Of a stretch of 64,000 bases of DNA, positions 17,803 to 35,255 are shown piece by piece; position 1 is the first letter of the stretch, and the number at the start of each line of letters is the position of its first letter. The notes under the pieces were generated by a model that saw nothing but the letters and a program-made list of their open reading frames with translations, made no database searches and was not told the DNA's origin. This DNA is from Streptococcus oralis subsp. tigurinus. Its GTDB lineage: Bacteria > Bacillota > Bacilli > Lactobacillales > Streptococcaceae. Location of the stretch: NCBI RefSeq assembly GCF_002356415.1, contig NZ_AP018338.1, forward strand, positions 248,001 through 312,000, written 5' to 3'. Made by a program: the position numbers and the translations under genes.

Positions 17803-17810
17803 AATCCTAT

Positions 17811-20825: not shown

Positions 20826-22105
20826 AGTGGAGATTGAGAAATTTGTCCCTGCTGGTTGTCTTGATTATATCTGTTGCTCTGGCTTTTGTATTTTGGGATT
20901 CAGCTCAGGAAAAAGTCCTGCGTATCGGGATCTATGCTGGCTCTAGCTGGGATGTGCCTAACAGCCGCGAAAACAAGGTCTTGGACAGCCTGATTAAAAA
21001 ATTTGAAAAGACGCATCCTCATGTCAAGGTCGTCTACGAAAGCGGTATTCCCAAGGATGATTATGCTGACTGGCTGGCAGAGGAAGTCTTGAAAGGCAAG
21101 CAGCCAGATCTCTTTATGGTACCAGAAAACGACTTTAGTATGTTGGCTTCGACTGGCGCGCTTAAATCCTTGGATACCCTCCTAACGGATGATGAGCGAA
21201 AGGCTTTTTATCCAGTGGCTTATGAGGCTGGGCAATATCAGGGAGTCAGCTATGCCCTTCCAGTTGAGAGCAATCCTATTATGATGTGTGTCAATAAAGA
21301 CCTGCTTGAAAAAGAAGGAATTAGCATTCCTGAGTCGGGCTGGACCCTGGTGGATTTCTATGAGATTTGCAAGAAAGTAACCAAGGATACCAATGGCGAT
21401 GGTGTGGTGGATCAGTACGGTATAACAGATTACACTTGGCAGCAGGCTCTGGTAGCTTACGGCGGCCATCTTATCGATAAATCCGGTATCAATGTAGACA
21501 GCGCAGAGATGCACCAAGCCTTGACCTTTATGAGCAAGCTAGATATGCTCAGCCAACACTATAAGGTGACTTCTAATGACTTTGATGAGGGACGGGTGGC
21601 CTTCTATCCTATGAGTCTGGCCCAGTATCGGACCTACAAGCCTTACCCTTACCATGTTGCCAAATATTCCAGCTTTTCTTGGACCTGTATCCCGATGCCG
21701 ACAGCCAATAGTCAGGTGATGGGAACACAGGTCAAGACCTCGCTTTTTGCCATGTCTTCCAATACCAAGCAAGAGAAGCTGGCTTGGGAATTTATGCTCT
21801 TGCTGTCACAGGATAAAGAAAGCCAGCAGGCTTTGTTTGAAAAATCGCAGGGGACCTCAGTCTTACCATCTGTGGTGAAAAGTCAACAGGCCAGAGAAAT
21901 CTTACAGGCAGATGATTTTGGCCTGGATTCCTTGACTTCTGAGAGGTTAGACCACATGATGAATCGCTCCATCATTGACATCAGTCTTGAAGTAGACCGT
22001 CATACCATGGACAGGATGGACTATCTGATTCAAAATGCTATACAGAATCAAGAGATTGACAGTGCCTTGCCGAGCATTCAAAGAGAAATAGAAAGCGGAA
22101 AATAA
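20822..22105 (+). CDS. Membrane-anchored extracellular solute-binding protein (family 1)
   Basis: A 427-residue protein with one N-terminal membrane helix (about 9-26, no lipobox Cys) and an extracellular carbohydrate-binding fold of the maltose-binding type (VLRIGIYAG, LIKKFEKTHPHVKVVYE, PDLFMVPEND, YALPVESNPIMMCVNKDLL, GITDYTWQQALVAYGG). There is no permease gene nearby, so it is unlikely to serve an ABC importer encoded here. Together with the RbsB-like protein it frames the kinase/regulator pair and may present ligand to the kinase. It overlaps the regulator gene by 4 bp. Substrate unknown. Confidence 0.82.
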   Translation: MKWRLRNLSLLVVLIISVALAFVFWDSAQEKVLRIGIYAGSSWDVPNSRENKVLDSLIKKFEKTHPHVKVVYESGIPKDDYADWLAEEVLKGKQPDLFMVPENDFSMLASTGALKSLDTLLTDDERKAFYPVAYEAGQYQGVSYALPVESNPIMMCVNKDLLEKEGISIPESGWTLVDFYEICKKVTKDTNGDGVVDQYGITDYTWQQALVAYGGHLIDKSGINVDSAEMHQALTFMSKLDMLSQHYKVTSNDFDEGRVAFYPMSLAQYRTYKPYPYHVAKYSSFSWTCIPMPTANSQVMGTQVKTSLFAMSSNTKQEKLAWEFMLLLSQDKESQQALFEKSQGTSVLPSVVKSQQAREILQADDFGLDSLTSERLDHMMNRSIIDISLEVDRHTMDRMDYLIQNAIQNQEIDSALPSIQREIESGK

Positions 22106-22120
22106 TCTGCTTTCTTTTTT
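22091..22120 (+). terminator. Terminator at the end of the sensor operon
   Basis: GAAAGC (22091-22096) pairs with GCTTTC (22109-22114), followed by six T. The 5' arm lies inside the last codons of the binding-protein gene. Confidence 0.75.
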
Positions 22121-22161
22121 ATTTCTAATTAAGTCAGAAAAAAGCACAGCTGCCTAGACCA

Positions 22162-22216
22162 ATATGACAAATGTCATATTTTTCCTAACAAATGTCATCT
22201 GGGCAAAATGACATTT
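22162..22216 (+). promoter_or_regulatory. Operator array upstream of the PTS operon
   Basis: First element: 18-bp perfect palindrome ATATGACAAATGTCATAT (22162-22179). Second element: AAATGTCAT (22190-22198) facing ATGACATTT (22208-22216). All share the half-site TGTCAT/ATGACA. The arrangement fits binding by the NarL-type regulator encoded just upstream. The same 16-bp core recurs at 33907-33922. Confidence 0.7.
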
Positions 22217-22222
22217 GACAAT

Positions 22223-22238
22223 ATGAAATCGGTTTCAA
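22223..22238 (+). promoter_or_regulatory. cre site (CcpA) before the PTS operon
   Basis: ATGAAATCGGTTTCAA fits the catabolite-responsive consensus WTGNAANCGNWNNCWW at every position. It lies between the operator array and a TAAAAT (22245-22250) that may be the -10, so CcpA would repress the PTS genes when preferred sugars are present. Confidence 0.75.
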
Positions 22239-22325
22239 AATTTGTAAAATAAAATCATCAATAAATCCTTCATCATTTAAAGCCTTACTTGGCTAAGAGC
22301 TAGAAGGAAAAAGGAGGCAGGAAAG

Positions 22326-22763
22326 ATGAAATACCTTGTACTGGTCAGCCATGGGGGACTGGCTGCAGGCGTGCAGAGTTCCTTAAAGATGTTTGCCGGA
22401 GACAAGACGGATCAGGTCATTGCGGTTGGTCTTCAGGAAGGCGAGTCAGTTGATGATTTTGCAGTTAATTTTACTCAGGCCTTGGCTGGCTTAAGCGCTG
22501 ATGACAGTGTCTTAGTTCTGGCTGATATTGTAGGAGGCAGTCCTCTGACGACAGCAGCTAGTGTCTTAGCTGACATGGGTAAGCTCGACTCAGCAGTTAT
22601 CTTGGGTGGTTTGAACCTGACCATGGGATTGACTGGTTTGGTTATGAAAGACATATTAGACGGAAAAGAGCTAGCTCAGGCTATCCTTTCTGAGGCTACA
22701 GCTGCTTTGCAGGAATTTGAAGTCGTAAGTGATGCAGCTGACGAAGATGAAGACGACATTTAG
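22326..22763 (+). CDS. PTS system, mannose-family EIIA component
   Basis: A 145-residue cytoplasmic phosphocarrier. The phosphorylated histidine is His9 in VLVSHGGLA. The VLADIVGGSPLTTAA segment is typical of the ManX-IIA fold. The C terminus is very acidic (DAADEDEDDI). GGAGG precedes the ATG. It is the first gene of a four-component PTS operon. Sugar specificity cannot be read from sequence, and no glycosidase or catabolic gene accompanies it. Confidence 0.92.
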   Translation: MKYLVLVSHGGLAAGVQSSLKMFAGDKTDQVIAVGLQEGESVDDFAVNFTQALAGLSADDSVLVLADIVGGSPLTTAASVLADMGKLDSAVILGGLNLTMGLTGLVMKDILDGKELAQAILSEATAALQEFEVVSDAADEDEDDI

Positions 22764-22806
22764 TACTTCCGCCATACATTCTAAAAGATAAAAGGAGATT
22801 TTAAAG

Positions 22807-23301
22807 ATGACAGTATCATTTGTACGGATTGACGACCGCATGATCCACGGTCAAACAGTCACTCGCTGGGCCAAGGAATACCCTTGTGATGGCTTGATTG
22901 CAGTAAATAATGCTGCAGCAGGAAACAAGGTTTTGATTCAGGCCTACAAGGGAGCTTCTGACAAGAAGACTTTTGTTTGGACCAAGGAAGCTTTCAAGGA
23001 AAAATCAGGCAAGGTCACAGAGTCAGACAGCCGCTATTTCCTCATTACGAAAAATCCTGTGGACATGAAAGAAATCCTAGTGGACCAAGGCTTTGTACCT
23101 GGTGATGTTAAGGAAATCATCATTGGCCCTGCTAATGACCGTCCTGGAGCTATTAAGCTGGGGAATAACCAGTCCATTACCCAGGAAGAGGCAGAAGCGA
23201 TTGAGGCGATCGAAAAAGCAGGCTACAAAGTCAAATTCCAGCTTCTACCAGATGTTTCCATAGGTTATTGGAGCGATTTCAAGTCTAAATTTGGTTTTTA
23301 A
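22807..23301 (+). CDS. PTS system, mannose-family EIIB component
   Basis: A 164-residue phosphocarrier that takes phosphate from EIIA and passes it to the sugar. The active-site histidine is His14 in RIDDRMIHGQTVTRW. AAAGGAG precedes the ATG, 43 bp after the EIIA stop. Confidence 0.93.
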   Translation: MTVSFVRIDDRMIHGQTVTRWAKEYPCDGLIAVNNAAAGNKVLIQAYKGASDKKTFVWTKEAFKEKSGKVTESDSRYFLITKNPVDMKEILVDQGFVPGDVKEIIIGPANDRPGAIKLGNNQSITQEEAEAIEAIEKAGYKVKFQLLPDVSIGYWSDFKSKFGF

Positions 23302-23328
23302 TTATAATAATAAAAAGGAGAGTCTATT

Positions 23329-24174
23329 ATGACAATTTCTTGGCTGCAAGCCGCTTTACTGGGTCTTTTCGCTAGTTTAGCTTCTATGCCTGGTATGGGT
23401 GGTTCTAGTATTGGTAACTACACTTTGGGACGTCCTCTGGTCGGGGGCTTGATTAGCGGGCTGATTCTCGGAGACTTACAAACAGGGATTATGGTTGGGG
23501 TAGCCCTTCAGGTTCTCTACATCGCTCTAGTAACACCAGGTGGTACAGTTTCTGCTGATGTGCGGGCGATTTCTTACATTGGGATTCCTCTCGCAATCTT
23601 ATTTGTTCATTCTAAAGGAATCACGTCTGAATCTGCTATCGCTGCAGCAGCTGCACCAATCGGAGCAGCAGTTGGTACTATCGGTACAGTTCTCTTCTAT
23701 GGAACAGCCACTACAAACCTGATATGGCAGCACATTGGTTGGAAAGCCGTTGAAAAAGGCGAATTTAAAAAGCTTTACGCTGTTGACTGGGTTTATCCTT
23801 GGATTTCCCACTTTGTCTTCTCTTTCCTTCCAACAATGCTTATCACTAAGTTTGGCCCCGATATGGTTGAGCTGATGAAGACTCACCTGCCAATGGATGG
23901 CTTCATCATGAAATCCCTCTTTACAGTCGGAGCTCTTCTCCCATGTGTAGGTATTGCCATTCTCTTGAAACAAATCGTTACCAAGGCTGCTGACTTTATC
24001 CCATTCTTTGTGGGCTTCACCTTGGCTAAGTCACTTGGTCTTAATTTGGTTGCCAGTGCAGTTGTTTCATTGATTTTTGCAGTAATTTACTATGAATTGG
24101 AAGTAATCAAATCAGCTCGTGTGACCGCGCCGGCTGGTGGGGCTGACTTTGATGACGATGAGGAGGATATCTAA
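23329..24174 (+). CDS. PTS system, mannose-family EIIC component
   Basis: A 281-residue membrane component forming the sugar channel with EIID. The N-terminal SMPGMGGSSIGNYTLGRPLVGGL and GLILGDLQTGIMVGVALQVLYIA match the EIIC-sorbose/mannose fold. About eight hydrophobic segments are visible, with an acidic C-terminal tail (DFDDDEEDI). AAAGGAG precedes the ATG. The EIID start lies one base after its stop. Confidence 0.92.
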   Translation: MTISWLQAALLGLFASLASMPGMGGSSIGNYTLGRPLVGGLISGLILGDLQTGIMVGVALQVLYIALVTPGGTVSADVRAISYIGIPLAILFVHSKGITSESAIAAAAAPIGAAVGTIGTVLFYGTATTNLIWQHIGWKAVEKGEFKKLYAVDWVYPWISHFVFSFLPTMLITKFGPDMVELMKTHLPMDGFIMKSLFTVGALLPCVGIAILLKQIVTKAADFIPFFVGFTLAKSLGLNLVASAVVSLIFAVIYYELEVIKSARVTAPAGGADFDDDEEDI

Positions 24175-24175
24175 G

Positions 24176-25012
24176 ATGGCTGAAAGAAAGAAAATAACTA
24201 AAAAGACTTTAGCGAAATCATTCCACCATTGGTACTATGGTCATTTGACTTGCTTCTCCCAAGAGCACATGCAGACTTTTGGTTACTTGACCTCTATGCT
24301 ACCAATTGTGGAAGAACTCTACAAAGACAAAGCAGAGCAGAAAGAAGCTATGCAGACCTATACAGCTTTCTTCAACACAGAACCTCAGCTCGGAGCTTTA
24401 GTAGTGGGGATTACAGCTGGTTTGGAAGAAGCGCGTGCCAATGGTGATGCAGTTGATGGAGAAACTATTAATGGTATGCGTGCTGGTCTCATGGGGCCTA
24501 TCGCAGGTATCGGTGACTCTTTGGTTGTCGGAACTTTAATTCCAGTTCTGCTGGGGATTGCCCTTGGCCTCTCGAAAGGTGGAAATCCTATCGGGGCTCT
24601 CTTCTATATCCTTGTTTGGAATGTTCTCATCTATGGCGGGATGCGCTTTGCCTACTTCAAAGGCTATGAATTAGGGGACAAGGCGGTAGAATTCCTTGTA
24701 GGACCTAAAGGACAGGCCCTTCGTAAGGCAATCAGTGTCATTGGTGGTATGGTTATCGGGGCAGTTGCTGCAACTTGGGTATCTGTAACGACTTCATTTG
24801 AGCTGAAAAATGCGGATGGCGAAGCCTTCTTGAAGCTACAAGAAAAGATTGACGGTGTTTATCCAGGTCTCTTAACAGCTGGCTTTATCACCCTTTGCTG
24901 GTGGCTGATGGCCAAGAAAAAAGTATCACCAAACCTTGTTATGCTCCTCTTGGTTGTCATTGCTTTGATTGGTGTAGCACTGGGCATCTTTGATCCTCAA
25001 CTGAAATACTAA
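24176..25012 (+). CDS. PTS system, mannose-family EIID component
   Basis: A 278-residue membrane component specific to the mannose PTS family. The N-terminal cytoplasmic part has FHHWYYGHLTCFSQEHMQTFGY, followed by NTEPQLGALVVGITAGLEEARA and RAGLMGPIAGIGDSLVVGTLIP, and by C-terminal membrane helices. The frame is open from 24137, but ATG 24176 with AGGAGG 10 bases upstream gives the expected N terminus. Confidence 0.93.
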   Translation: MAERKKITKKTLAKSFHHWYYGHLTCFSQEHMQTFGYLTSMLPIVEELYKDKAEQKEAMQTYTAFFNTEPQLGALVVGITAGLEEARANGDAVDGETINGMRAGLMGPIAGIGDSLVVGTLIPVLLGIALGLSKGGNPIGALFYILVWNVLIYGGMRFAYFKGYELGDKAVEFLVGPKGQALRKAISVIGGMVIGAVAATWVSVTTSFELKNADGEAFLKLQEKIDGVYPGLLTAGFITLCWWLMAKKKVSPNLVMLLLVVIALIGVALGIFDPQLKY

Positions 25013-25028
25013 TTCCTACTCAAGTTTC

Positions 25029-25061
25029 AGACTGGCAGTAAGTCCGATATGCTGCTAGTCT
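25029..25061 (+). other. Hairpin between EIID and the small membrane gene
   Basis: AGACTGGCAG (25029-25038) pairs with CTGCTAGTCT (25052-25061) except for one mismatch. No T run follows, so it may be an RNA-processing or partial attenuation signal rather than a terminator. Confidence 0.4.
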
Positions 25062-25102
25062 AGTATCAATTTGTTTGACTAAAATAAAGAATGGAGAAAA
25101 TC

Positions 25103-25393
25103 ATGACAGAACAAGAATTGATTCAAGGTTATGAAACAGAAATTCACTACCAGAAGCATATGATTGAAAATCTAGGACGCTGGTTTAGTCTCTTCTTTGT
25201 CATTGCCAGTATCGGTCTTGTTCTAATTTACTTCTTTCATGAGACTAATCTATTAGCACTGATTGCAGGAATTGTCCTAGCCCTTCTGGGTGTCTTAGCC
25301 ATGCTCTTGTTTGGTTATGGCATCTACAGAGGCAGGCTCAATCTGCAAAAGGTGATCAATGATTTTGAAGCAAAACTAAAACTTGCAAGATAG
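25103..25393 (+). CDS. Small membrane protein, unknown function
   Basis: A 96-residue protein with a charged N-terminal helix (TEQELIQGYETEIHYQKHMIENLG), two membrane helices (about 27-45 and 50-72) and a basic/acidic C-terminal helix. No family is recognised. ATG 25103 is chosen because GGAG lies 6 bases upstream; ATG 25091 would place that site inside the gene. It is the last gene before the right MarR copy, probably read with the PTS genes, and is followed by a strong terminator. A link to PTS function is only positional. Confidence 0.7.
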   Translation: MTEQELIQGYETEIHYQKHMIENLGRWFSLFFVIASIGLVLIYFFHETNLLALIAGIVLALLGVLAMLLFGYGIYRGRLNLQKVINDFEAKLKLAR

Positions 25394-25413
25394 ACATTTA
25401 ATCTAGAAAACAT

Positions 25414-25447
25414 AATCCTAAGTGAGAAGCTCACTTGGGATTTTTTA
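25414..25447 (+). terminator. Terminator at the right end of the PTS unit
   Basis: Thirteen-base stem (25414-25426 with 25430-25442, one G-U pair), loop AAG, followed by T. It lies 8 bp before the right direct repeat. Confidence 0.85.
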
Positions 25448-25455
25448 TCAAAAAA

Positions 25456-25544
25456 TAGTTCTCTAGGAAACTTTTTTCTTGACATCTCCTCCGAAAGTGA
25501 TAAAATAGTTCTCATGAAAACTAAATTAGTTCTCCAGAAAACTA
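25456..25544 (+). promoter_or_regulatory. MarR gene promoter with three operator-like sites, right copy
   Basis: TTGACA (25479-25484), 16-bp spacer, TAAAAT (25501-25506). The sites correspond to those of the left copy. The third (25527-25544) has one mismatch (TAGTTCTCCAGAAAACTA), so the repressor may bind it less tightly than the perfect palindrome of the left copy. Confidence 0.78.
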
Positions 25545-25570
25545 TATAAAATCATGAGAAGGGAGCAATC

Positions 25571-26032
25571 ATGGACAAATCGTTGTTGATTTTTAAACGT
25601 TTTGGGTACCAGATCCACCTGATGTTGCAGAAAGAAGCCAAACGTTGCGGTATTGAATTTATGGGGGGACCGCAAGGACAGGTCCTGCAGTTTTTAGATC
25701 GTCGTGAGCATGATCAGGAATTAACGCTTATCAAGGATATTGAGACAGAACTCAATATCACCAAGTCAGTTGCAAGCAACTTGGTCAAGCGTATGGTACA
25801 AAATGATTTAGTCGAGTTAGAGGCCAGTCCAAGTGATAAACGAGCAAAACTTGTTCGTTTGACCGATAAATCACGATCTCAGATGCAAGAAGTTAAGGCG
25901 CTTTTTGATCGGATTGCCAGTGGTCTACTGGAAGGAATTTCAAAGGAAAAGCTAGCCGTTTTTGAAGAAGTTCTCGGACAACTACAGGCTAATGTAGAAA
26001 GAATAGGAGGAGAGAATGAAGAAACTTGCTAA
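25571..26032 (+). CDS. MarR-family regulator, right copy
   Basis: A 153-residue winged-helix repressor, 147 of 153 residues identical to the left copy; most changes fall in the first 20 residues (PM/SL, H/Y, V/I and V/L), plus P/L near residue 140. It overlaps the ABC exporter gene by 17 bp, so repressor and exporter are translated from one mRNA. The usual logic is autorepression relieved by a drug or metabolite that the exporter removes; the ligand is unknown. Confidence 0.93.
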   Translation: MDKSLLIFKRFGYQIHLMLQKEAKRCGIEFMGGPQGQVLQFLDRREHDQELTLIKDIETELNITKSVASNLVKRMVQNDLVELEASPSDKRAKLVRLTDKSRSQMQEVKALFDRIASGLLEGISKEKLAVFEEVLGQLQANVERIGGENEETC

Positions 26033-27785
26033 ACGTATTACAGGAAAAGAGTGGGGGATGATCCTACTCACTGTTCTTTTCACTTGTTTCTCGGTCTATC
26101 TCGAGTTAGAAGTGCCGACCTATATTTCAGAAATAACAGAATTGATTGGAACACCGGGTACGGAGTTAGGACAACTATGGTCTCCTGCTGCTAAGATGAT
26201 GGGCTTATCTCTCCTAGCCTTTCTGTCTTCTGTAACAGTTGGATTTTTTGCTTCTCGTGTTGCAGCGTCTTACACGACTCACTTGCGAAGAGATATTTTT
26301 AATCGTGTTCTAGATTTTTCGCAAACGGAAATCAAACGTTTTTCAATCCCCAGTCTTTTGACTCGAACGACCAATGATATTACGCAGGTTCAGATGCTCT
26401 TTACTATGGGCTTACAGGTAGTGACTCGTGGGCCTATCATGGCCATCTGGGCCATTGGAAAAATCCTTGGGAAGTCGGAATACTGGCTCTGGGCAGTAGT
26501 GGTGGCCGTCATTGTCAATGTCTTGATGACCACTGTTCTCATTACTCTAGCTTTTCCAAAACAATCTGTCATTCAAAAATTGACAGATAAACTCAATAGC
26601 ATCACTCGCGAAAGTTTGACTGGGATTCGGGTTGTTCGTGCTTATAATGCCGAGGATTACCAAGATAAGAAATTTGAAGAAGCCAATGATGAGGTGACTC
26701 GTCTCAATCTCTTTGTCAATCGATTGATGGCGATTATGAACCCTATTATGATGGCGATTTCCAGCGGTTTGACCTTAGCCATTTACTGGATTGGTGCCTA
26801 TATCATCAACGATGCAAGTTTGGCAGAACGTCTGCCACTCTTTAGTGATATGGTGGTCTTCATGTCCTATGCTATGCAGGTCGTGATGGGCTTCCTTCTC
26901 ATGGGAGCACTCTTTATCGTTCTTCCTCGTACCTTGGTTTCTGCAGGACGTATCAATCAAGTATTGGATTTGCATTCTTCTATTGAAAATCCTAGTCATG
27001 CACAGACAGCGGACCCTTCAGTTCAAGGACAAGTGGAATTTCGTGATGTGACTTTCCGCTACTCTAAAAACTCTGAAGCAGTCGTGGAACATGTCACTTT
27101 CAAAGCAGAAGCGGGTCAAACTGTGGCCTTTATCGGTTCAACTGGTTCTGGTAAATCTACTCTGGTCAACCTACTACCTCGTTTTTACGATGTATCCGCG
27201 GGAGAAATTCTAGTAGATGGTGTTAATGTGCAAGATTACGACTTGGTAGACTTGCGCAATAAGGTTGGCTATATTCCGCAGAAAGCAGTCCTCTTCTCAG
27301 GAGATGTTAAGGACAATCTAGATTTTGGTAAGAGCAAAGAAACTCCTCTAGGCGAAGCTGCTATGTGGCAAGCTCTGGAATTAGCCCAGTCTAAAAACTT
27401 TATCGAGGATAAGGAAGCAGGTCTGGCCTCTGAAGTAGCCCAAGGCGGAACCAACTTCTCAGGAGGTCAAAGACAGCGTTTGGCCATTGCGCGTGCCTTG
27501 GCTCGTAAGCCAGAGATTCTTATCTTTGATGACTCTTTCTCAGCCTTGGACTACAAGACAGACCGGATCTTGCGCCAAGAGCTAGCAGAGAAAACAAAAT
27601 CTATGACCAAGCTCATCGTAGCACAGCGGATTTCTACCATCATGGATGCCGACCTGATCTTAGTATTGGATCAAGGTAAAGTCGTGGGGCAAGGCACCCA
27701 CAAGGAACTTCTAGCTACCAATGAAGTCTACCAAGAAATTGCCTACTCACAACTATCGAAGGAGGAATTGGAACATGGAAAATAA
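26016..27785 (+). CDS. Heterodimeric ABC multidrug exporter, subunit 1 (degenerate ATP site)
   Basis: A 589-residue half-transporter: six membrane helices (residues 1-330), then a nucleotide-binding domain with Walker A GSTGSGKST from residue 374, signature FSGGQRQ near 481 and Walker B ILIFDDSFSALD. Residue 506, normally the catalytic Glu after Walker B, is Asp. The partner subunit has an altered signature. That pairing of one degenerate and one canonical ATP site is known from heterodimeric exporters such as LmrCD and BmrCD. It overlaps MarR upstream and the second subunit downstream (11 bp). Confidence 0.92.
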   Translation: MKKLAKRITGKEWGMILLTVLFTCFSVYLELEVPTYISEITELIGTPGTELGQLWSPAAKMMGLSLLAFLSSVTVGFFASRVAASYTTHLRRDIFNRVLDFSQTEIKRFSIPSLLTRTTNDITQVQMLFTMGLQVVTRGPIMAIWAIGKILGKSEYWLWAVVVAVIVNVLMTTVLITLAFPKQSVIQKLTDKLNSITRESLTGIRVVRAYNAEDYQDKKFEEANDEVTRLNLFVNRLMAIMNPIMMAISSGLTLAIYWIGAYIINDASLAERLPLFSDMVVFMSYAMQVVMGFLLMGALFIVLPRTLVSAGRINQVLDLHSSIENPSHAQTADPSVQGQVEFRDVTFRYSKNSEAVVEHVTFKAEAGQTVAFIGSTGSGKSTLVNLLPRFYDVSAGEILVDGVNVQDYDLVDLRNKVGYIPQKAVLFSGDVKDNLDFGKSKETPLGEAAMWQALELAQSKNFIEDKEAGLASEVAQGGTNFSGGQRQRLAIARALARKPEILIFDDSFSALDYKTDRILRQELAEKTKSMTKLIVAQRISTIMDADLILVLDQGKVVGQGTHKELLATNEVYQEIAYSQLSKEELEHGK

Positions 27786-29535
27786 GAAAATGTCTTTTTG
27801 GAAACACTCTAAACCTTTTCTAGCAGGTCTCCAACTTCCCCTACTAGTAGCGGTTGTAGCAGCTGTATGTTCAAGCATCATCACGGTTTATGGACCGACT
27901 AAGATAAAAGAAATCACCAACTTAATCTCAGATGGTTTGATGACGGGAATTGACCTAGAGGCTGTTTCAAGTATTGCTAGCTTTTTAGTGATTCTCTATG
28001 TACTTGGTGCTATCCTTAACTATACACAGGCCTATATCTTTTCAACAAGTATCCAACATTTTTCAAAACGCTTGCGGACGGCAATTGCTGAAAAAATCAA
28101 TCGTTTGCCCCTTGGCTATTTTGATCGTCATTCTCAAGGAGATACCCTTTCGCGCGTGACCAATGACGTTGATACGGCCGCTCAATCTCTCAATCAAAGT
28201 TTGGGAACAGTACTCTCAGCTAGCTTCTTGTTGATTGCTGTTTTGGTGACCATGTTTAGCATGAACTGGATTTTAGCTCTGGTAACGGTTGTTTCTACGC
28301 TTGTTGGTTTTGCGGCAGTTTCCGTAATTATGGCTAAGTCACAAGGGTACTTTAGAGCTCAGCAAAACAACTTGGCGGCTGTCAATGGTTATGTAGAAGA
28401 AATGTATTCGGGACACAATGTTGTAACGAGCTACAACGCAGTAGACACCTCTAAAGCGAAATTTGCAGGTTTGAATCAGAACTTGCACGACAGCATCTGG
28501 AAATCTCAGTTTATCTCTGGTATCATGATGCCAGCCATGTTCTTTGTTGGGAATTTTAGCTATGTTTTGGTCATCATTGTTGGGGCCGCGCTTGCTCTAG
28601 AAGGGCATATCACTATAGGGATTATTGTAGCCTTTATGGTTTACGTACGGACCTTCTCCCAACCCCTGTCACAGATTGCCCAAGGGATTACGAGCTTACA
28701 ACAAGCGAGTGCAGCCATGGGACGTGTCTTTGAATTTCTAGGTGAAGCTGAGATGCAGGATGAATCCCATAAGGAAAGACAATTGACTGGCATGAGAGGA
28801 GAAGTGGTCTTTGATCGCGTATCCTTTGGTTATACACCAGAACGCACCATCATCCATGACTTTTCTGCGACAGCTCATGCAGGCCAGAAGGTCGCTATCG
28901 TTGGGCCTACTGGAGCTGGTAAGACAACCATTGTCAATCTTTTGATGAAGTTCTATGAGATTGATAAGGGAAGTATCCGTATCGATGGAGTCGATACCAA
29001 GAATATGAAGCGCTCAGAAGTACATGATGCCTTTTCAATGGTCTTACAAGATACTTGGCTCTTTGAAGGAACCATTCGGGAAAATCTCATCTACAATCAG
29101 ACAGGTATCAGCGATGAGCGGATGATGGAAGCCAGCAAGGCTGTGGGAATTCACCACTTTATCATGACTTTGCCAGATGGCTACGATACTGTTTTGGATG
29201 ACACTGTGACCTTGTCTGTTGGACAGAAACAGCTTTTGACTATCGCTCGTGCTTTGTTGAAAGATGCACCGCTCTTGATTTTGGATGAAGCGACATCCTC
29301 AGTTGACACACGTACAGAGGAATTGATTCAGAAAGCCATGGACCGTTTGATGGAAGGCAGAACTTCCTTTGTCATCGCCCATCGCTTGTCAACTATTCGT
29401 AATGCTGATTTGATTCTTGTTATGAAAGATGGTAATATTATTGAGCAAGGCAATCACGAGGAGCTGATGGCGCAAGGTGGCTTCTATGCGGATCTCTACA
29501 ATAGTCAATTTACAGAAGACGAAGCAGAAGAATAA
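27775..29535 (+). CDS. Heterodimeric ABC multidrug exporter, subunit 2 (canonical Walker B)
   Basis: A 586-residue half-transporter: six membrane helices, then a nucleotide-binding domain with Walker A GPTGAGKTT from residue 377, signature LSVGQKQ at 480-486 (Val in place of the usual second-position Gly) and Walker B LLILDEATSSVD with the catalytic Glu505. The frame is open from 27721, but ATG 27775 with AAGGAGG 9 bases upstream is the likely start. It should pair with subunit 1. Substrate unknown; drug or peptide export is inferred from family and MarR control. Confidence 0.92.
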   Translation: MENKKMSFWKHSKPFLAGLQLPLLVAVVAAVCSSIITVYGPTKIKEITNLISDGLMTGIDLEAVSSIASFLVILYVLGAILNYTQAYIFSTSIQHFSKRLRTAIAEKINRLPLGYFDRHSQGDTLSRVTNDVDTAAQSLNQSLGTVLSASFLLIAVLVTMFSMNWILALVTVVSTLVGFAAVSVIMAKSQGYFRAQQNNLAAVNGYVEEMYSGHNVVTSYNAVDTSKAKFAGLNQNLHDSIWKSQFISGIMMPAMFFVGNFSYVLVIIVGAALALEGHITIGIIVAFMVYVRTFSQPLSQIAQGITSLQQASAAMGRVFEFLGEAEMQDESHKERQLTGMRGEVVFDRVSFGYTPERTIIHDFSATAHAGQKVAIVGPTGAGKTTIVNLLMKFYEIDKGSIRIDGVDTKNMKRSEVHDAFSMVLQDTWLFEGTIRENLIYNQTGISDERMMEASKAVGIHHFIMTLPDGYDTVLDDTVTLSVGQKQLLTIARALLKDAPLLILDEATSSVDTRTEELIQKAMDRLMEGRTSFVIAHRLSTIRNADLILVMKDGNIIEQGNHEELMAQGGFYADLYNSQFTEDEAEE

Positions 29536-29540
29536 ATCTA

Positions 29541-29566
29541 AAGAAGGCTTGACGGCCTTCTTTTTC
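29541..29566 (+). terminator. Terminator after the ABC exporter
   Basis: AAGAAGGC (29541-29548) with GCCTTCTT (29555-29562), followed by T. Confidence 0.85.
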
Positions 29567-29632
29567 TGCACTATACTAGAAGACAAACGTCTCACCTGTA
29601 GACGAAAACAAGGTAATGAATGAGAAGTATAA

Positions 29633-30136
29633 ATGAAAAATTATCAAGAATGGTATAGAAATATCAGCTCCAGACTCACTAGTTATCCAACCCTTTTATT
29701 TCTGTTACGGAGTTTCAATCGTTTGATGACAGTCGCCATGCCCCTGGTCTATCTGATCTTGCTAGTCACCACTTGCCTGAAACTAGAACTTGGTCAGCAA
29801 GTTGGGGTTTATGTGCTTATTCCTGCATCAGGATTTGTGGTCTTGTCCCTGTTTCGTAAGAAAATCAATCACCCGCGACCTTATGAAACTTGGGATATCA
29901 GTCCCCTGCTTGAAAAAGATAGTTCGGGAAAGTCTATGCCTAGTCGCCATGTCTTTTCGGCAACCATCATCTCCATGGCCTGTCTGCATGCTAGTCTACC
30001 TGTTGGCTTAGCATGCTTGCTCTTCTCAGCTTTGCTGGGCTTGGTGAGGGTTTTAGGTGGTGTTCATTATCCCAAGGATGTCTTGGTTGGCTATGCTTGT
30101 GGTCTCATGTGGGGGCTCCTTTTCTTCCTATTCTGA
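29633..30136 (+). CDS. PAP2-family membrane phosphatase
   Basis: A 167-residue membrane protein with the three phosphatase motifs in order: KKINHPRP (K-x6-RP), MPSRHVF (PSGH-like; Ser where Gly is usual) and RVLGGVHYPKDVLVG (S/G-R-x5-H-x3-D), with four to six membrane helices. Family members hydrolyse lipid phosphates such as undecaprenyl pyrophosphate or phosphatidylglycerol phosphate at the outer face of the membrane; the substrate here is unknown. A GAGAAG site precedes the ATG, and a weak TATACT (29572-29577) may be the -10. No terminator is seen after it. Confidence 0.88.
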   Translation: MKNYQEWYRNISSRLTSYPTLLFLLRSFNRLMTVAMPLVYLILLVTTCLKLELGQQVGVYVLIPASGFVVLSLFRKKINHPRPYETWDISPLLEKDSSGKSMPSRHVFSATIISMACLHASLPVGLACLLFSALLGLVRVLGGVHYPKDVLVGYACGLMWGLLFFLF

Positions 30137-30160
30137 TATGTAAGTTAATCTAGTCCTACA

Positions 30161-30190
30161 ACCACTTACTGCTTCAAAATGACCACTTGC
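30161..30190 (+). promoter_or_regulatory. LytTR-type direct repeat operator
   Basis: ACCACTTAC (30161-30169) and ACCACTTGC (30182-30190): two 9-bp repeats separated by exactly 12 bp, a period of 21 bp. This spacing is typical for LytTR-domain regulators (ComE, BlpR, HdrR/BrsR). They lie just upstream of the promoter of a LytTR gene, so autoregulation is likely. Confidence 0.7.
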
Positions 30191-30200
30191 TTTTTTGCCC

Positions 30201-30229
30201 TTGTTTTCCTCATTTAGCTTTGATATAGT
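30201..30229 (+). promoter_or_regulatory. Promoter of the LytTR gene
   Basis: TTGTTT (30201-30206), 17-bp spacer ending in TGA, TATAGT (30224-30229). The -35 starts 10 bp after the direct repeat. Confidence 0.7.
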
Positions 30230-30249
30230 AGAGTCAGAAAGGAGATGTG

Positions 30250-30696
30250 ATGAAGTTACGAATTGAGATTGACGGCAATTTAGAGGAGACTGAAATTGTC
30301 ATCAAGACCCCCACTTTGACAGATGAAATTGCAGATTTGCAACGGCTCTTGCAAGAGTCAAAGGCTCCGAGGTTGACTTTTTACAAGGGGACAGGTGAAT
30401 ATTATCTAGACCTTTCAGAAATTCTCTTCTTTGAAACAGAAGGGAGCAAGATCTACGCTCATAACCAGAAGGAAGCCTATGAAGTACGTCTCAAACTCTA
30501 TGAGTTGGAGTCCATCTTGCCTCGCTATTTTAGTCGAGTATCCAAGTCAACTATTGCAAACATCCGTCAGATTTACTCAGTGGACAAGTCCTTTTCAGGA
30601 ACGGGCACCATTTCCTTTTATCAGACGCACAAGGAGGTTCATGTGTCACGACATTACCAGTCCCTCCTAAAAGAAAATCTAAGAAACATGAGGTAA
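30250..30696 (+). CDS. LytTR-domain DNA-binding regulator
   Basis: A 148-residue regulator with no receiver domain. Residues 45-148 form the LytTR domain (YLDLSEILFFETEGSKIYAHNQ, LKLYELESIL, YFSRVSKSTIANI). The start is ATG 30250 behind AAAGGAG; a GTG one codon earlier is possible. The next gene, 5 bp on, encodes a membrane protein. A stand-alone LytTR protein followed by a membrane partner is the layout of the LytTR regulatory systems HdrRM and BrsRM of S. mutans, in which the membrane protein restrains the regulator. Target genes are unknown apart from its own promoter. Confidence 0.9.
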   Translation: MKLRIEIDGNLEETEIVIKTPTLTDEIADLQRLLQESKAPRLTFYKGTGEYYLDLSEILFFETEGSKIYAHNQKEAYEVRLKLYELESILPRYFSRVSKSTIANIRQIYSVDKSFSGTGTISFYQTHKEVHVSRHYQSLLKENLRNMR

Positions 30697-30701
30697 AAGA
30701 C

Positions 30702-31376
30702 ATGAAAAAGAAAGCATTTGGTATTATTTTATTGGTTTTAGCAGCCTGGATCTTGCTGCAAGGAAATTTTGGCATTCCTTCTTTGGATGGTAAGATATGG
30801 CCTTTGCTAGGAATTGTTTTTTTTGCTTATAAGTCCATTGAGTCCATCCTTAGACGCCATCTAACTTCGGCAGTTTTTACAGGTTTACTGGCGCTCATCA
30901 TTGCAAATTACGCTTATGAGTTGTTGCCAGTTACAAATCATTCTCTCATCTGGGCTAGCATCTTAGTAGTACTCGGTGTTGGTTATCTGACACATTCAAG
31001 TAAGTTCTGGCATGAGAAAAAATGGTGGTACAACGGTGAACGAACAGTCATCACAGATAAGGAAGTCACTTTTGGCAGTGGAACCTTCTATAAACAAGAT
31101 CAAGATATTGTAGACGACCAAGTGGAAGTCGCTTTTGGGGACGCTAAAATCTACTATGACAATGCAGAGATGTTAGGTGATTTTGCGACTTTAAATATTG
31201 AAGTGGCCTTCGGAAATGCAACAGTCTATGTCCCACAACACTGGCGAGTCGATCTGAAAGTAGAAACATCCTTTGGTGCAGCTAAGGCAGATGCTCCTGT
31301 AGCACCAACAAACAAAACCTTGATTATTCGTGGGGAAGTTGCTTTTGGTAAACTTGGAGTTGTTTACGTTAAATAA
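30702..31376 (+). CDS. Membrane protein with LiaF-like C-terminal domain
   Basis: A 224-residue protein: four short membrane helices in residues 1-100, then a soluble beta-rich domain with repeated Phe-Gly motifs (VTFGSGTFYKQD, VEVAFGDAKIYYDNA, NIEVAFGNATVYVP, VETSFGAAKADAP, GEVAFGKLGVVYV). This matches the C-terminal domain of LiaF/VraT-type inhibitors of cell-envelope stress signalling. Translation starts 5 bp after the LytTR gene. By position and domain it is probably the negative partner of the LytTR regulator (inference). Confidence 0.85.
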   Translation: MKKKAFGIILLVLAAWILLQGNFGIPSLDGKIWPLLGIVFFAYKSIESILRRHLTSAVFTGLLALIIANYAYELLPVTNHSLIWASILVVLGVGYLTHSSKFWHEKKWWYNGERTVITDKEVTFGSGTFYKQDQDIVDDQVEVAFGDAKIYYDNAEMLGDFATLNIEVAFGNATVYVPQHWRVDLKVETSFGAAKADAPVAPTNKTLIIRGEVAFGKLGVVYVK

Positions 31377-31395
31377 AAAAAGTCTTCGAATTTCC

Positions 31396-31424
31396 TTGCC
31401 AAAATAGAGAAAGTGTGATAACAT
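31396..31424 (+). promoter_or_regulatory. Promoter of rpmB
   Basis: TTGCCA (31396-31401), 17-bp spacer ending in TGA, TAACAT (31419-31424). A leader of about 50 nt follows with the palindrome GTGCTAGCAC. Confidence 0.65.
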
Positions 31425-31482
31425 AGTACGGTATGTGGTGCTAGCACATCCGCTATATTAGATCTAATAGGAGGAAAACACA

Positions 31483-31671
31483 ATGGCTAAAGTATGTTAC
31501 TTTACAGGTCGTAAGACTGTATCTGGAAACAACCGTTCACACGCGATGAACCAAACAAAACGTGCCGTAAAACCAAACCTTCAAAAAGTTACTGTTCTTA
31601 TCGATGGTAAACCTAAAAAAGTTTGGGCTTCAGCTCGTGCTTTGAAATCAGGTAAAGTTGAACGCGTTTAA
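31483..31671 (+). CDS. rpmB: Ribosomal protein L28
   Basis: A 62-residue basic protein of the large ribosomal subunit. [23 protein letters not shown] and the VKPNLQKV segment are diagnostic. AGGAGG precedes the ATG. It is a single-gene unit with its own promoter and terminator. Confidence 0.97.
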
Positions 31672-31679
31672 TAAAAATG

Positions 31680-31701
31680 AAAAGACCGCTTAGGTCTTTT
31701 T
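31680..31701 (+). terminator. Terminator after rpmB
   Basis: AAAAGACC (31680-31687) with GGTCTTTT (31693-31700), followed by T. Confidence 0.85.
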
Positions 31702-31766
31702 CTTTTGCTCTAGAGATAAAACCATTTGAAAAATAGAGTAAATATCCGCCGATACAGCATTCTGCT

Positions 31767-31795
31767 TTTACACTTGGGCTGAAATATGATAAAAT
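31767..31795 (+). promoter_or_regulatory. Promoter of the Asp23/FakA-like operon
   Basis: TTTACA (31767-31772), 17-bp spacer ending in TGA, TAAAAT (31790-31795). Confidence 0.75.
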
Positions 31796-31823
31796 AGAGT
31801 ATCAACTAGTTGAGGTAAAAAAA

Positions 31824-32189
31824 ATGACTGTAAAAATTAATACAAAAGATGGTCAAATCGAACTGACAGATGAAGTGATTGCAACCGTAGTAGGTGGTGC
31901 CGCAACTGAGATTTTTGGTGTGGTCGGTATGGCTAGTAAAAATGCCCTCAAAGACAATTTCCAAGCCCTCCTTGGTAAGGAAAATTATTCTAAGGGTGTT
32001 GTCGTGAAGGCAGCCGAAGATGGTAGCATCGCAGTTGATGTTTATACCGTGTTGAGCTACGGAATAAAGATAAGCGAAGTGTCAAAAAACATTCAAGAGC
32101 GTGTTCGTTTTAGTCTAGAAAATCAACTAGGAATTACTGCTCAGACTGTGAATGTCTACATTCAAAATATCAAAGTTGTAGGAGAATAA
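31824..32189 (+). CDS. Asp23/Gls24-family envelope stress protein (YloU-like)
   Basis: A 121-residue protein with the Asp23 signature (GQIELTDEVIATVVGGAATEIFGVVGM ... VVVKAAEDGSIAVDVYTVLSYG). Family members sit at the inner face of the membrane or are linked to envelope stress; the exact role of this YloU type is not known. It directly precedes the FakA-like gene (2 bp gap), an order conserved in Firmicutes. Confidence 0.9.
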   Translation: MTVKINTKDGQIELTDEVIATVVGGAATEIFGVVGMASKNALKDNFQALLGKENYSKGVVVKAAEDGSIAVDVYTVLSYGIKISEVSKNIQERVRFSLENQLGITAQTVNVYIQNIKVVGE

Positions 32190-32191
32190 TC

Positions 32192-33859
32192 GTGTCAAAA
32201 ATTACTACCAGTTTATTCCAAGAGATGGTGCAAGCTGCATCAACTCGTTTGAATAAGCAAGCAGAATATGTCAATTCATTGAATGTCTTTCCGGTTCCAG
32301 ATGGAGATACTGGGACAAATATGGGAATGACCATTGAAAATGGTGCGAAAGAAGTAGCAGACAAGCCTGCTTCTACAGTTGGAGAAGTAGCGAGCATTCT
32401 TGCCAAAGGGCTCTTGATGGGTGCGCGTGGGAACTCAGGGGTTATCACTTCTCAGCTCTTCCGTGGCTTCTCCCAAGCTATCAAGGAAAAGGATGAGTTA
32501 ACAGGTCAAGACTTGGCTCTTGCCTTCCAATCTGGTGTCGAAGTAGCTTATAAAGCGGTTATGAAACCAGTTGAAGGAACCATTTTGACTGTTTCTCGTG
32601 GAGCGGCTATTGGGGCTAAGAAAAAAGCCGAGGAGACAGATGATGCTGTTGAGGTCATGCGTGCAGCCTTGGAAGGTGCAAAAGCAGCTTTGGCTAAGAC
32701 ACCAGAAATGCTTCCAGTCCTTAAGGAAGTTGGTGTGGTAGACTCAGGTGGTCAAGGTTTGGTCTTCATCTACGAAGGATTCCTTTCAGCTCTTACTGGT
32801 GAATACAGTGCTTCTGAAGACTTTGTAGCGACTCCTGCAAACATGAGTGAAATGATCAATGCAGAGCACCACAAGTCTGTGGCAGGGCATGTGGCAACTG
32901 AGGATATTACCTTCGGTTACTGTACGGAAATCATGGTAGCCCTCAAACAAGGTCCAACTTATTCTAAGGACTTTGACTACGATGAATTCCGTAACTACTT
33001 GAATGAACTCGGAGACTCTCTACTTGTTGTCAACGATGATGAGATCGTCAAAGTTCACGTCCATACAGAAGATCCAGGTCTTGTCATGCAAGAAGGTCTT
33101 AAATATGGTAGCTTGATCAAGGTCAAAGTGGACAACATGCGTAATCAACACGAGGCGCAAGTTGAAAAAGAAGCGACTCAAGGAAATAAGCCCGCTGAAA
33201 CAAAAGAGTACGCCCTTATCGCAGTAGTAGCAGGTCAAGGCTTGGCAGATATCTTCCGTGCCCAAGGTGTGGATTATGTCATCGAAGGTGGTCAGACGAT
33301 GAATCCTTCAACAGAAGACTTTATCAAGGCTGTTGAACAGGTCAATGCTCGCAACATCATCTTCTTGCCGAACAACAAAAATATCTTTATGGCAGCTCAG
33401 TCTGCGGCTGAAGTGCTTGAACAACCTGCTGTTGTGGTAGAAGCACGTACAATTCCTCAAGGATTGACGAGTCTTCTTGCATTTGACCCAAGTAAATCAA
33501 TCGAAGAAAATAAAGAACGCATGACTGCAGCCCTTGGCGATGTCGTAAGCGGAAGTGTAACAACAGCCGTTCGTGATACAACTATCGATGGATTAGCAAT
33601 TCATGAAAATGACAATCTTGGTATGGTCGATGGAAAAATCCTTGTGTCAAATCCTGACATGCATCAAACCTTGACTGAAACCTTGAAGCACATGATAGAC
33701 GAAGATAGTGAAATCGTAACTTTCTATGTCGGTGAAGATGGAAGTGAAGAATTAGCCAACCAAATCGCCCAAGAAATTGCAGAAGAATTCGAAGACGTTG
33801 AAGTCGAAATCCACCAAGGTCAACAACCTGTATACCCATATCTTTTCAGTGTGGAATAA
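32192..33859 (+). CDS. fakA: Fatty acid kinase FakA-like (DAK2-domain, YloV family)
   Basis: A 555-residue cytoplasmic protein. The N-terminal DAK2/DhaL domain (residues 1-200) holds the nucleotide/Mg motif NVFPVPDGDTGTNM and GARGNSGVI; a middle domain and a DegV-like C-terminal region follow. FakA phosphorylates exogenous fatty acids delivered by FakB proteins (known in Staphylococcus and Streptococcus). The start is GTG 32192 with TAGGAGA 8 bases upstream. A strong terminator follows. Confidence 0.9.
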   Translation: MSKITTSLFQEMVQAASTRLNKQAEYVNSLNVFPVPDGDTGTNMGMTIENGAKEVADKPASTVGEVASILAKGLLMGARGNSGVITSQLFRGFSQAIKEKDELTGQDLALAFQSGVEVAYKAVMKPVEGTILTVSRGAAIGAKKKAEETDDAVEVMRAALEGAKAALAKTPEMLPVLKEVGVVDSGGQGLVFIYEGFLSALTGEYSASEDFVATPANMSEMINAEHHKSVAGHVATEDITFGYCTEIMVALKQGPTYSKDFDYDEFRNYLNELGDSLLVVNDDEIVKVHVHTEDPGLVMQEGLKYGSLIKVKVDNMRNQHEAQVEKEATQGNKPAETKEYALIAVVAGQGLADIFRAQGVDYVIEGGQTMNPSTEDFIKAVEQVNARNIIFLPNNKNIFMAAQSAAEVLEQPAVVVEARTIPQGLTSLLAFDPSKSIEENKERMTAALGDVVSGSVTTAVRDTTIDGLAIHENDNLGMVDGKILVSNPDMHQTLTETLKHMIDEDSEIVTFYVGEDGSEELANQIAQEIAEEFEDVEVEIHQGQQPVYPYLFSVE

Positions 33860-33873
33860 AAATTTAATCGATT

Positions 33874-33907
33874 AAAAAGAAAGTTGATTTTGCAACTTTC
33901 TTTTTTT
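33874..33907 (+). terminator. Terminator after fakA
   Basis: Thirteen-base-pair perfect stem (33874-33886 with 33893-33905) ending in T. Its T run abuts the palindrome at 33907-33922. Confidence 0.9.
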
Positions 33908-33972
33908 ATGACATTTGTCATATTTCCTAGTGACAGAAGCATCTAGCTCCGCCAACTTCAAAAGTCTATAAT
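33907..33972 (+). promoter_or_regulatory. Palindromic operator and promoter of the TCS11-like operon
   Basis: TATGACATTTGTCATA (33907-33922) is a perfect 16-bp palindrome, followed by a half-site TGACA at 33931. The -10 is TATAAT (33967-33972), and no -35 is visible, which fits an activator-dependent promoter. The palindrome centre is about 64 bp before the expected start of transcription, a class I activator position. The same sequence (read from the other strand) occurs at 22163-22178. Confidence 0.75.
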
Positions 33973-33998
33973 TGAAGTATGAAATGGAGGAAGAAGAA

Positions 33999-34190
33999 AT
34001 GAAAAATAAAATGATTGTCGCAGTGAGTTTAGTAGCAGCAGGAGTTATGACCTATCTCATGTTTTCAGGATTGGACGAGGGTTTCTACCATTTTCCTTGG
34101 GAGCTCTTTGCTGGCTTTGGAATGATGTCTTGGCTTGTCAGAGAAGGTTTGAAATTGGTCAGAGATGTGAAAAAGGAGTTTGAGGAATGA
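33999..34190 (+). CDS. Small membrane protein 1 of the TCS11-like operon
   Basis: A 63-residue protein with two hydrophobic segments (VAVSLVAAGVMTYLMFSG, then FPWELFAGFGMMSWLV) and a charged C-terminal tail. ATG 33999 with GGAGG 9 bases upstream is the likely start; the open frame from 33972 overlaps the -10. It overlaps the next gene by 4 bp. Function unknown; position suggests a role with the ABC exporter and two-component system. Confidence 0.75.
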   Translation: MKNKMIVAVSLVAAGVMTYLMFSGLDEGFYHFPWELFAGFGMMSWLVREGLKLVRDVKKEFEE

Positions 34191-34381
34191 AAAAAGCAAT
34201 CATCTATTTCTTTATCGGCCTGTCACTCTTGGTATGGTTAGTGGAAATGTTTACTGGTTGGTTTGACCAAACCTTGTTTCGCCAATTTATTCGTGGTGCC
34301 TGGGGTTTTGGATTTATGATTTTCGTCGTTTTCCCTATGGGAATGAAGTGGTTGAAAGGAGAATCTCATGACTGTGATTAA
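34187..34381 (+). CDS. Small membrane protein 2 of the TCS11-like operon
   Basis: A 64-residue protein with two hydrophobic segments (IIYFFIGLSLLVWLVEMFTG and FGFMIFVVFPMGMKWL) and a short polar tail. It starts within the end of the preceding gene (ATGA overlap) and its own end overlaps the ABC ATPase gene by 14 bp, so translation is tightly coupled. No family is recognised. Confidence 0.75.
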   Translation: MKKAIIYFFIGLSLLVWLVEMFTGWFDQTLFRQFIRGAWGFGFMIFVVFPMGMKWLKGESHDCD

Positions 34382-35243
34382 AGTTGAGAAATTAAGTAAG
34401 AAGATAAAAGACAAGGAGATCTTGCGGAACATCTCCTTTGAAATCAACGATGGTGAATGTGTCGCCTTGATCGGGCCTAACGGAGCAGGAAAAACAACCT
34501 TGATTGATTGTCTCTTGGGCGACAAGTTCATGAGCTCAGGTCAGGTCGCCATTCAAGGATTTGCGCCAACAGATCCTCGATTAAAGCAGCTTATTTCTGT
34601 CTTGCCTCAAGAAAATACGGTGGTTCAAGACTTGAAAGTGAAAGAACTCTTATCCTTCTTTCAATCAATCTATCCAAACAGTCTTTCAGACAAAGAAATT
34701 GATGACTTGCTAAGATTCTCAGACAAGCAGAAAAATCAGTTAGCGGGCAAGCTGTCTGGTGGGCAAAAACGTTTGTTCTCTTTTGTGTTGTCTTTAATAG
34801 GTCGTCCAAAAATTCTATTTTTAGATGAGCCGACTGCTGCAATGGATACCTCTACACGTCAGCATTTTTGGGAAATTGTCAATCAGTTAAAGCAAAATGG
34901 TGTCACCATTGTCTATTCTTCTCACTATATCGAAGAGGTAGAGCATACGGCTGACCGCATTTTGGTCCTTCACAAGGGTGAATTGATTCGCGATACGACG
35001 CCTTATGCTATGCGTGGTGAAGAACAAGAAAAACACTTTACGGTACCACTAACTTATCAGGAAGTTATCAGCACTTTGGACCAGATTCAAGAGCTTGAAA
35101 TCAAGCAAAATGCTCTTTCCTTCACAACCAAAGAAGCCAGCCAGGTATGGAAAGTCTTGCAAGAACAGGGCTGCATGATCGAAGAAATTGAAGTTCGCAA
35201 TCGAACTCTCTTAGACAGTATCTTCGAAACGACTCAAGACTAA
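34368..35243 (+). CDS. ABC transporter ATP-binding protein
   Basis: A 291-residue ATPase subunit: Walker A GPNGAGKTT near residue 36, Q-loop PQENTVVQD, signature LSGGQKR and Walker B LFLDEPTAAMD. The C-terminal 80 residues form an extra domain common in drug/antibiotic ABC-2 exporters. AAAGGAGA precedes ATG 34368. It pairs with the permease that follows 12 bp downstream. Resembles the ABC unit linked to pneumococcal TCS11; substrate unknown. Confidence 0.92.
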   Translation: MTVIKVEKLSKKIKDKEILRNISFEINDGECVALIGPNGAGKTTLIDCLLGDKFMSSGQVAIQGFAPTDPRLKQLISVLPQENTVVQDLKVKELLSFFQSIYPNSLSDKEIDDLLRFSDKQKNQLAGKLSGGQKRLFSFVLSLIGRPKILFLDEPTAAMDTSTRQHFWEIVNQLKQNGVTIVYSSHYIEEVEHTADRILVLHKGELIRDTTPYAMRGEEQEKHFTVPLTYQEVISTLDQIQELEIKQNALSFTTKEASQVWKVLQEQGCMIEEIEVRNRTLLDSIFETTQD

Positions 35244-35255
35244 AGGAGATTGACG

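Follow-up and report, generated by a model that had tools for sequence, protein, structure and literature searches.

Genes and palindromes of the two operons

A stretch of 64,000 nucleotides of Streptococcus oralis subsp. tigurinus (contig NZ_AP018338.1, positions 248,001 to 312,000; here called the window) was investigated for two 16-bp palindromes, each situated upstream of an operon with its own NarL-type response regulator. The palindromes TATGACAAATGTCATA (22163-22178) and TATGACATTTGTCATA (33907-33922) are exact and reverse complements of each other. Sequence inspection thus confirmed the initial annotation, which had described them as one duplex read from opposite strands. The first palindrome precedes the phosphotransferase system (PTS) genes of a sugar (lev) cluster, the second an operon of the two-component system 11 (TCS11) type. 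Shared recognition of the putative operator ATGACA-N2-TGTCAT by both regulators, LevR and RR11, is well supported. The lev genes, whose names were assigned by architecture, and their promoter elements are:

17290..25398, + strand, probably acquired lev block (93.8% identity with S. sanguinis strain 2908)
17811..18833, + strand, LevQ-like sugar-binding protein (Pfam Peripla_BP_4, 3e-41; named by LevQRST analogy)
18824..20149, + strand, LevS-like histidine kinase (HisKA_3 and HATPase_c)
20142..20825, + strand, LevR-like NarL-type response regulator with helix SEGTVRNYLSGILAKL (domain search, helix inspection)
20822..22105, + strand, LevT-like extracellular solute-binding protein (SBP_bac_8, 2.8e-31)
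22163..22178, no strand, palindrome TATGACAAATGTCATA, proposed LevR operator 1 (sequence search, lev gaps of relatives)
22184..22199, no strand, proposed operator 2 with intact right half (ACAAATGTCAT), 21 bp from operator 1
22207..22222, no strand, proposed operator 3 with intact left half (ATGACATTTG), 44 bp from operator 1
22224..22237, no strand, cre (catabolite-responsive element)-like site TGAAATCGGTTTCA (sequence match)
22245..22250, + strand, candidate -10 hexamer TAAAAT (a second TAAAAT begins at 22250)
22326..22763, + strand, PTS EIIA, levD-like (EIIA-man)
22807..23301, + strand, PTS EIIB, levE-like (PTSIIB_sorb)
23329..24174, + strand, PTS EIIC, levF-like (EII-Sor)
24137..25012, + strand, PTS EIID, levG-like (EIID-AGA)

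The second palindrome belongs to the following features.

33907..33922, no strand, palindrome TATGACATTTGTCATA, proposed RR11 operator (sequence search, relatives, motif of PMC11034029)
33929..33935, + strand, AGTGACA half-site, N7 after the 14-bp core (relatives; same in PMC11034029)
33967..33972, + strand, candidate -10 hexamer TATAAT, 59 bp from the core start
33972..34190, + strand, first small open reading frame (ORF) of the TCS11 operon (a later ATG is probably the real start)
34187..34381, + strand, second small ORF of the TCS11 operon
34368..35243, + strand, ABC transporter ATPase (domain search)
35250..35990, + strand, ABC-2 permease (domain search)
35995..37092, + strand, HK11-like histidine kinase (HisKA_3)
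37094..37693, + strand, RR11-like response regulator, recognition helix with GTVRNY core (domain search, helix inspection)

The half-sites at 22184 and 22207, the element at 22224-22237 and AGTGACA at 33929-33935 were not included in the initial annotation. Sequence TGAAATCGGTTTCA at 22224-22237 is presumably a cre-like site, as judged from the CcpA consensus. The TTTCCTA described earlier behind both palindromes is present here, but it is not conserved in the promoters of relatives. As a common element it was rejected as incidental.

Occurrence of the palindrome in the genome

In the whole genome (1,889,005 bp) two perfect sites were found, with no further site at one mismatch and two more at two mismatches. 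The pattern read backwards, used as control, gave one match at either cut-off. Only 0.005 perfect copies of TATGACAWWTGTCATA were expected genome-wide (zero-order model, base composition of the window). The sole matches in the window without mismatch are the two palindromes. Allowing up to three mismatches, four matches were obtained against 1.25 expected, a number reached by 3 of 100 shuffles. The initial annotation had named a palindrome common across the genome as evidence against its proposal; with two perfect sites in 1.89 Mb this is not the case. Further targets within one mismatch were not found in the scan of the 1,889,005 bp. Of the two-mismatch sites, the one at L004 lies inside an ORF, rhodanese-like by eye.

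A terminator-like hairpin with a T run, recognized by eye at about 33877-33907 behind the gene of a 555-amino-acid protein, ends directly at the TCS11 palindrome. This position would fit an origin of the palindromes by chance, from a terminator or from an unrelated repressor. Such an origin has a negligible probability, given two perfect sites against the 0.005 expected and a conservation far above that of 119 permuted palindromes.

Conservation of the site in other genomes

Orthologs of LevR were detected in 116 and orthologs of RR11 in 259 of 284 genomes of the genus (E<=1e-45). From the 116 LevR loci, five were dropped (levT not found by the script) and 111 were scored. The core ATGACA-N2-TGTCAT occurs in the gap between levT and the PTS genes without mismatch in 34 loci, with one mismatch in 68 and with more in nine; hence 102 of 111 carry it within one mismatch. 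Counted as distinct gaps, these are 83 of 92, while the best of the 119 permuted palindromes reached 12. Of 79 loci collected from named genomes, 65 are non-Streptococcus, and for 61 of them the region 1200-1800 bp after LevR was available. In these 600 bp, where the gap would be expected, the core was present within one mismatch in 29 of the 61 loci (15 perfect), compared with 5 for the best of 119 controls. Thus ATGACA-N2-TGTCAT is likely the LevR operator, which is the new part of this finding.

Nine non-Streptococcus loci (L294-L302, L351) had a further core within one mismatch some 3-4 kb ahead of the end of LevR, which suggests autoregulation of the sensor genes. In the window, no 16-bp site within three mismatches was found before levQ. 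A perfect core was further seen at 3978-3991 of L374 (genome G037), 181 bp from a copy with one mismatch. By eye, its neighbors are a deoC-like and a methyltransferase-like gene; no NarL-type gene was noticed beside it.

For the TCS11 operon 87 promoters were examined, those of the window and of 86 relatives (out of 258 other genomes with RR11). Of these, 73 have the core with no more than one mismatch and 86 with no more than two; counting only distinct promoters, 53 of 56 have TGACA at +22. A candidate RR11 motif, ATGACATTTGTCAT-N7-AGTGACA, was published before and noted to be near the ATGACA-N2-TGTCAT of DesR, with biochemical assays called still needed (PMC11034029). The window matches this motif letter for letter before the TCS11 operon. 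Hence, the RR11 half of the shared site is already published. LevR has no occurrence in the main text of this article. The exact motif was found in the open-licence PMC literature in PMC11034029 and in one paper on E. coli PhoB, and among the matches listed no paper joined LevR to it.

Recognition helices and kinship of the regulators

The initial annotation also reported a common recognition helix, and this was verified: SEGTVRNYLSGILAKL is present in the regulator at 20142-20825 and a near-identical helix in that at 37094-37693. Three GerE-domain matches were detected in the genome, the LevR-like, the RR11-like and a LiaR/VraR-like regulator. The latter has the helix SLKTVKTHVSNILAKL, with TVKTH where the former two have TVRNY. 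SEGT[VI]RNY[LI]S was found in all 116 streptococcal LevR orthologs, and SGTVRNY is also present in DesR. A single in-frame stop interrupts each of three LevR orthologs (G078, G057 and G178), whose PTS genes are preceded by a core that is perfect in G078 and G057 and has one mismatch in G178.

Kinship was judged from pairwise identities and PDB bit scores. LevR and RR11 share 29% identity in the receivers and 39% in the DNA-binding domains, and each of the latter is 44% identical to the LiaR-like one. The stretches around the phosphorylated histidine of the two kinases are 23% identical. The best PDB match of LevR was VraR (156 bits; DesR 95 bits), whereas DesR was the best named match of RR11 (173 bits; VraR 92 bits). 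Chains above DesR in the RR11 search are deposited only as 'Response regulator'. RR11 matches the chains 4zmr/4hye at about 388 bits. As judged by these values, LevR is overall not the closest kin of RR11.

Layout of the lev and fruA promoters

Among 70 distinct lev promoters compared from relatives, 50 repeat the right half at +21; the left half was found in 54 at +44 and in 8 at +45. Similar cre-like elements are visible in these promoters by eye. The lev palindrome of the window is 22 bp further from its candidate -10 hexamer than the TCS11 palindrome from its own.

LevR of S. mutans activates levD and fruA, both of which are under catabolite repression (PMC3043104, PMC3353171). The fruA promoter contains a dyad at -72 to -59, which is required for expression and likely the target of LevR (PMC9241797). 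In 25 LevR-bearing genomes searched, 16 regions upstream of large GH32 genes (frames above 1000 amino acids) were obtained as candidate fruA promoters. Nine of them contain the core with at most one mismatch. In each of the nine, a hexamer that differs from TATAAT in no more than one base begins 59-60 bp from the start of the core (search range 54-67), and TGACA is found at +22/+23 in eight. The candidate of G043, with two mismatches, shares this layout; in the remaining six, with two or three mismatches, the scan showed no such layout. Looser repeats are visible in the fruA candidates of G277, G072 and others. Upstream of the fruA candidate of G204, the distance from the start of the 14-bp core ATGACATCTGTCAT to TATACT is 60 bp. 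With transcription estimated to start 12 bp after the first base of TATACT, ATGACATCTGTCAT would lie at about -72 to -59, so that it would correspond to the published dyad in position and length.

The genome of the window contains one GH32 gene (491 amino acids) and none of the large fruA type. Hence fruA was rejected as second LevR target here. The lack of fruA limits the regulon, but leaves the LevQRST-type architecture unaffected.

Assignment of the site to the regulators

In 8 of the 116 LevR genomes RR11 was not found. The lev core is perfect in seven of them, including G277, and has one mismatch in G279. Conversely, where RR11 was found and LevR was not, the TCS11 core is present within one mismatch in 25 of 26 genomes examined (hand count; exception G090). 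Thus, in these genomes the same operator is maintained by each regulator alone. Since each site is kept without the other regulator, it is very likely that both regulators independently recognize the same DNA.

The identical cores in one cell, and an RR11 motif that fits both, could also be explained by one regulator that alone reads the site and captures the other operon, e.g. RR11 running the acquired PTS operon. We regard this as highly improbable. Within one mismatch, 8 of 8 LevR-only genomes retain the lev site and 25 of 26 RR11-only genomes examined that of TCS11, and the published LevR dyad has a matching position at fruA (PMC9241797).

Some observations weigh against independent recognition by both regulators. 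A site within one mismatch is missing in 9 of 111 lev gaps (G277 among them), in 32 of 61 non-Streptococcus loci in the expected gap and in 7 of 16 candidate fruA promoters. Absence of RR11 means no match at E<=1e-45. The genomes are phylogenetically redundant, and the fruA promoters of G105 and G035 are identical. G204 is S. mutans-like only by a GH32 gene of 522 amino acids after the fruA candidate, and such a pair also occurs in G127 and, with 523 amino acids, in G171. G277 was rejected as a site-less counterexample, because its site adjoins EIIA beyond an insertion. This insertion (about 3184-9929 of L375) separates levT from the PTS genes and holds an ORF that is like a DNA methyltransferase by eye; a perfect ATGACATTTGTCAT remains at 3725 beside EIIA.

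Overall, the earlier proposal of a common DNA target is well supported by independent retention, by the helix in 116 of 116 LevR orthologs and by the position of the fruA dyad, whereas the cross-talk derived from it stays conjectural. With good confidence, we explain both palindromes as one operator type, ATGACA-N2-TGTCAT, for two NarL-type activators with the helix core GTVRNY and mostly insulated outputs. Phosphorylated LevR, switched by the sensors LevQ and LevT together with LevS, would bind a three-site array before the PTS operon and activate it, and CcpA would oppose this activation via the cre-like site at the promoter. Phosphorylated RR11 would bind palindrome and half-site before its own operon and activate the exporter and itself. 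The likeness of the sites would result from each regulator keeping the same operator, not from one regulon, and transfer of the lev block would have given this cell its two perfect copies. Each regulator should hence also bind the site of the other in vitro or when overexpressed, while under natural expression the separate kinases would largely isolate the outputs. What the sequences show are the sites, their conservation and the likely acquisition; binding, activation and insulation are inferred from them.

Origin of the lev block

The sugar system was called acquired in the initial annotation. Region 17290-25398 shows its 93.8% identity to S. sanguinis strain 2908 over 8121 aligned positions, and outside this region nothing matches that strain (window 14001-36000 compared with 12.7 kb). 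Sixteen other genomes encode a LevR of 97-99% identity. In eight of these 16, among the matches listed, RR11 is only about 70% identical to that of the window. Genomes with an RR11 of 92-95% identity, among the matches listed, either lack a LevR match or have one of 77-78% identity. From the similarity of the block and this contrast between LevR and RR11, it is concluded that the block was probably acquired by horizontal transfer. The promoter belongs to the part resembling S. sanguinis DNA, so that the identity of the two sites was probably brought in with it.

At the end of the block an ORF of 100 amino acids (25091-25393) gave no Pfam or NCBIfam match. Directly after the block (25571-29535) a MarR-type regulator and two MsbA-like ABC exporters follow, and at 30247-31376 a LytTR-domain protein and, after it, a LiaF-like membrane protein are encoded.

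Possible cross-talk and operator drift

Cross-talk at natural levels, i.e. phosphorylated LevR acting on the TCS11 operon or phosphorylated RR11 on the lev PTS operon, is unlikely in our estimation. It would be favored by the same core operator in the same cell and by the layout of 8 of the 16 candidate fruA promoters, which equals that of TCS11 to within 1 bp (half-site at +22/+23, -10 hexamer at +59/+60). Against it, the distance between palindrome and candidate -10 hexamer is 22 bp longer for lev than for TCS11. The low identities of the receivers (29%) and of the kinase histidine stretches (23%) make cross-phosphorylation unlikely. The lev promoter arrived with the block, and the TCS11 site is present in relatives without LevR; hence their identity was not shaped for cross-talk here. 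Positive autoregulation of RR11 was reported for strain D39V, and on overexpression of RR11 the own operon was the only specific target (PMC11034029). Strain D39V is not known to have a lev cluster, so that this result says little on lev. In a pneumococcal rr11 mutant two sugar PTS loci, bgaC and ugl, were lowered (PMC7105139), which counts in favor of cross-talk. Neither of the two studies bears directly on lev.

The nearest precedent is found in Bacillus subtilis. YvfU activated a DesR target promoter only with YvfTU overexpressed, and the kinases cross-phosphorylate in vitro, but at natural levels this arrangement is silent between the systems (PMC7726353). Cross-talk is unproven, and by this precedent more likely latent than active.

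Less probable still is that the transfer cross-wired the circuits, with LevR switching on the TCS11 exporter and RR11 leaking into lev, and that long-cohabiting lineages let the operator drift. A hint of INTERFERENCE was seen in perfect lev cores, which are commoner without RR11 (6 of 8 versus 28 of 103 genomes, p 0.01, before correction of G277). With G277 corrected, clusters without and with RR11 gave 6/7 versus 12/35 at 98% identity (p 0.03), 6/7 versus 11/29 at 95% (p 0.04) and 5/6 versus 6/22 at 90% (p 0.02), with a definition that was chosen post hoc and without a tree. Perfect TCS11 cores are rarer with LevR (22/61) than without (17/26), again without a tree. Among 58 genomes seen at both promoters, nine had perfect lev cores and 20 perfect TCS11 cores. 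Both together were found in two of them, the genome of the window and G054, versus 3.1 expected from the margins (by hand). Operator divergence as a means of insulation was rejected, as this set gave no sign of avoidance. In the commonest pairing (16 of the 58 genomes), position 1 is G in either site. Operator drift is thus a lead, not a result.

For the LevR system a concrete candidate operator is gained that recurs in several Firmicutes groups and agrees with the operator that earlier work predicted for RR11 and reported for DesR. Streptococcal ATGACA-N2-TGTCAT sites are not assignable to one regulator by sequence alone. Streptococci with both systems offer a natural test of insulation by kinase specificity, half-site layout or operator drift. 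With cross-talk at natural levels, exporter status and sugar uptake would be coupled in this strain.

Comparison with known systems

The lev cluster resembles LevQRST/levDEFG of S. mutans. Two sugar-binding proteins flank the pair of HisKA_3 kinase and NarL-type regulator, a four-subunit PTS of the Man family follows directly downstream, and a cre-like site is present. By the estimated transcription start in the S. mutans-like G204, the operator would resemble the S. mutans fruA dyad in position and length. In contrast, the cluster of the window matches S. sanguinis DNA.

The second operon agrees with pneumococcal TCS11 of the DesKR/YvfTU family (PMC11034029, PMC7726353). Both consist of two small ORFs, ABC ATPase, permease, histidine kinase and response regulator, and no difference was noticed.

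As in B. subtilis with DesR and YvfU (PMC7726353), two NarL-type regulators in one cell are predicted to be able to act on one operator type. However, DesR and YvfU are 58% identical, whereas LevR and RR11 share only 29% in the receiver and 39% in the DNA-binding domain. Furthermore, the score of LevR is 156 bits with VraR and only 95 bits with DesR.

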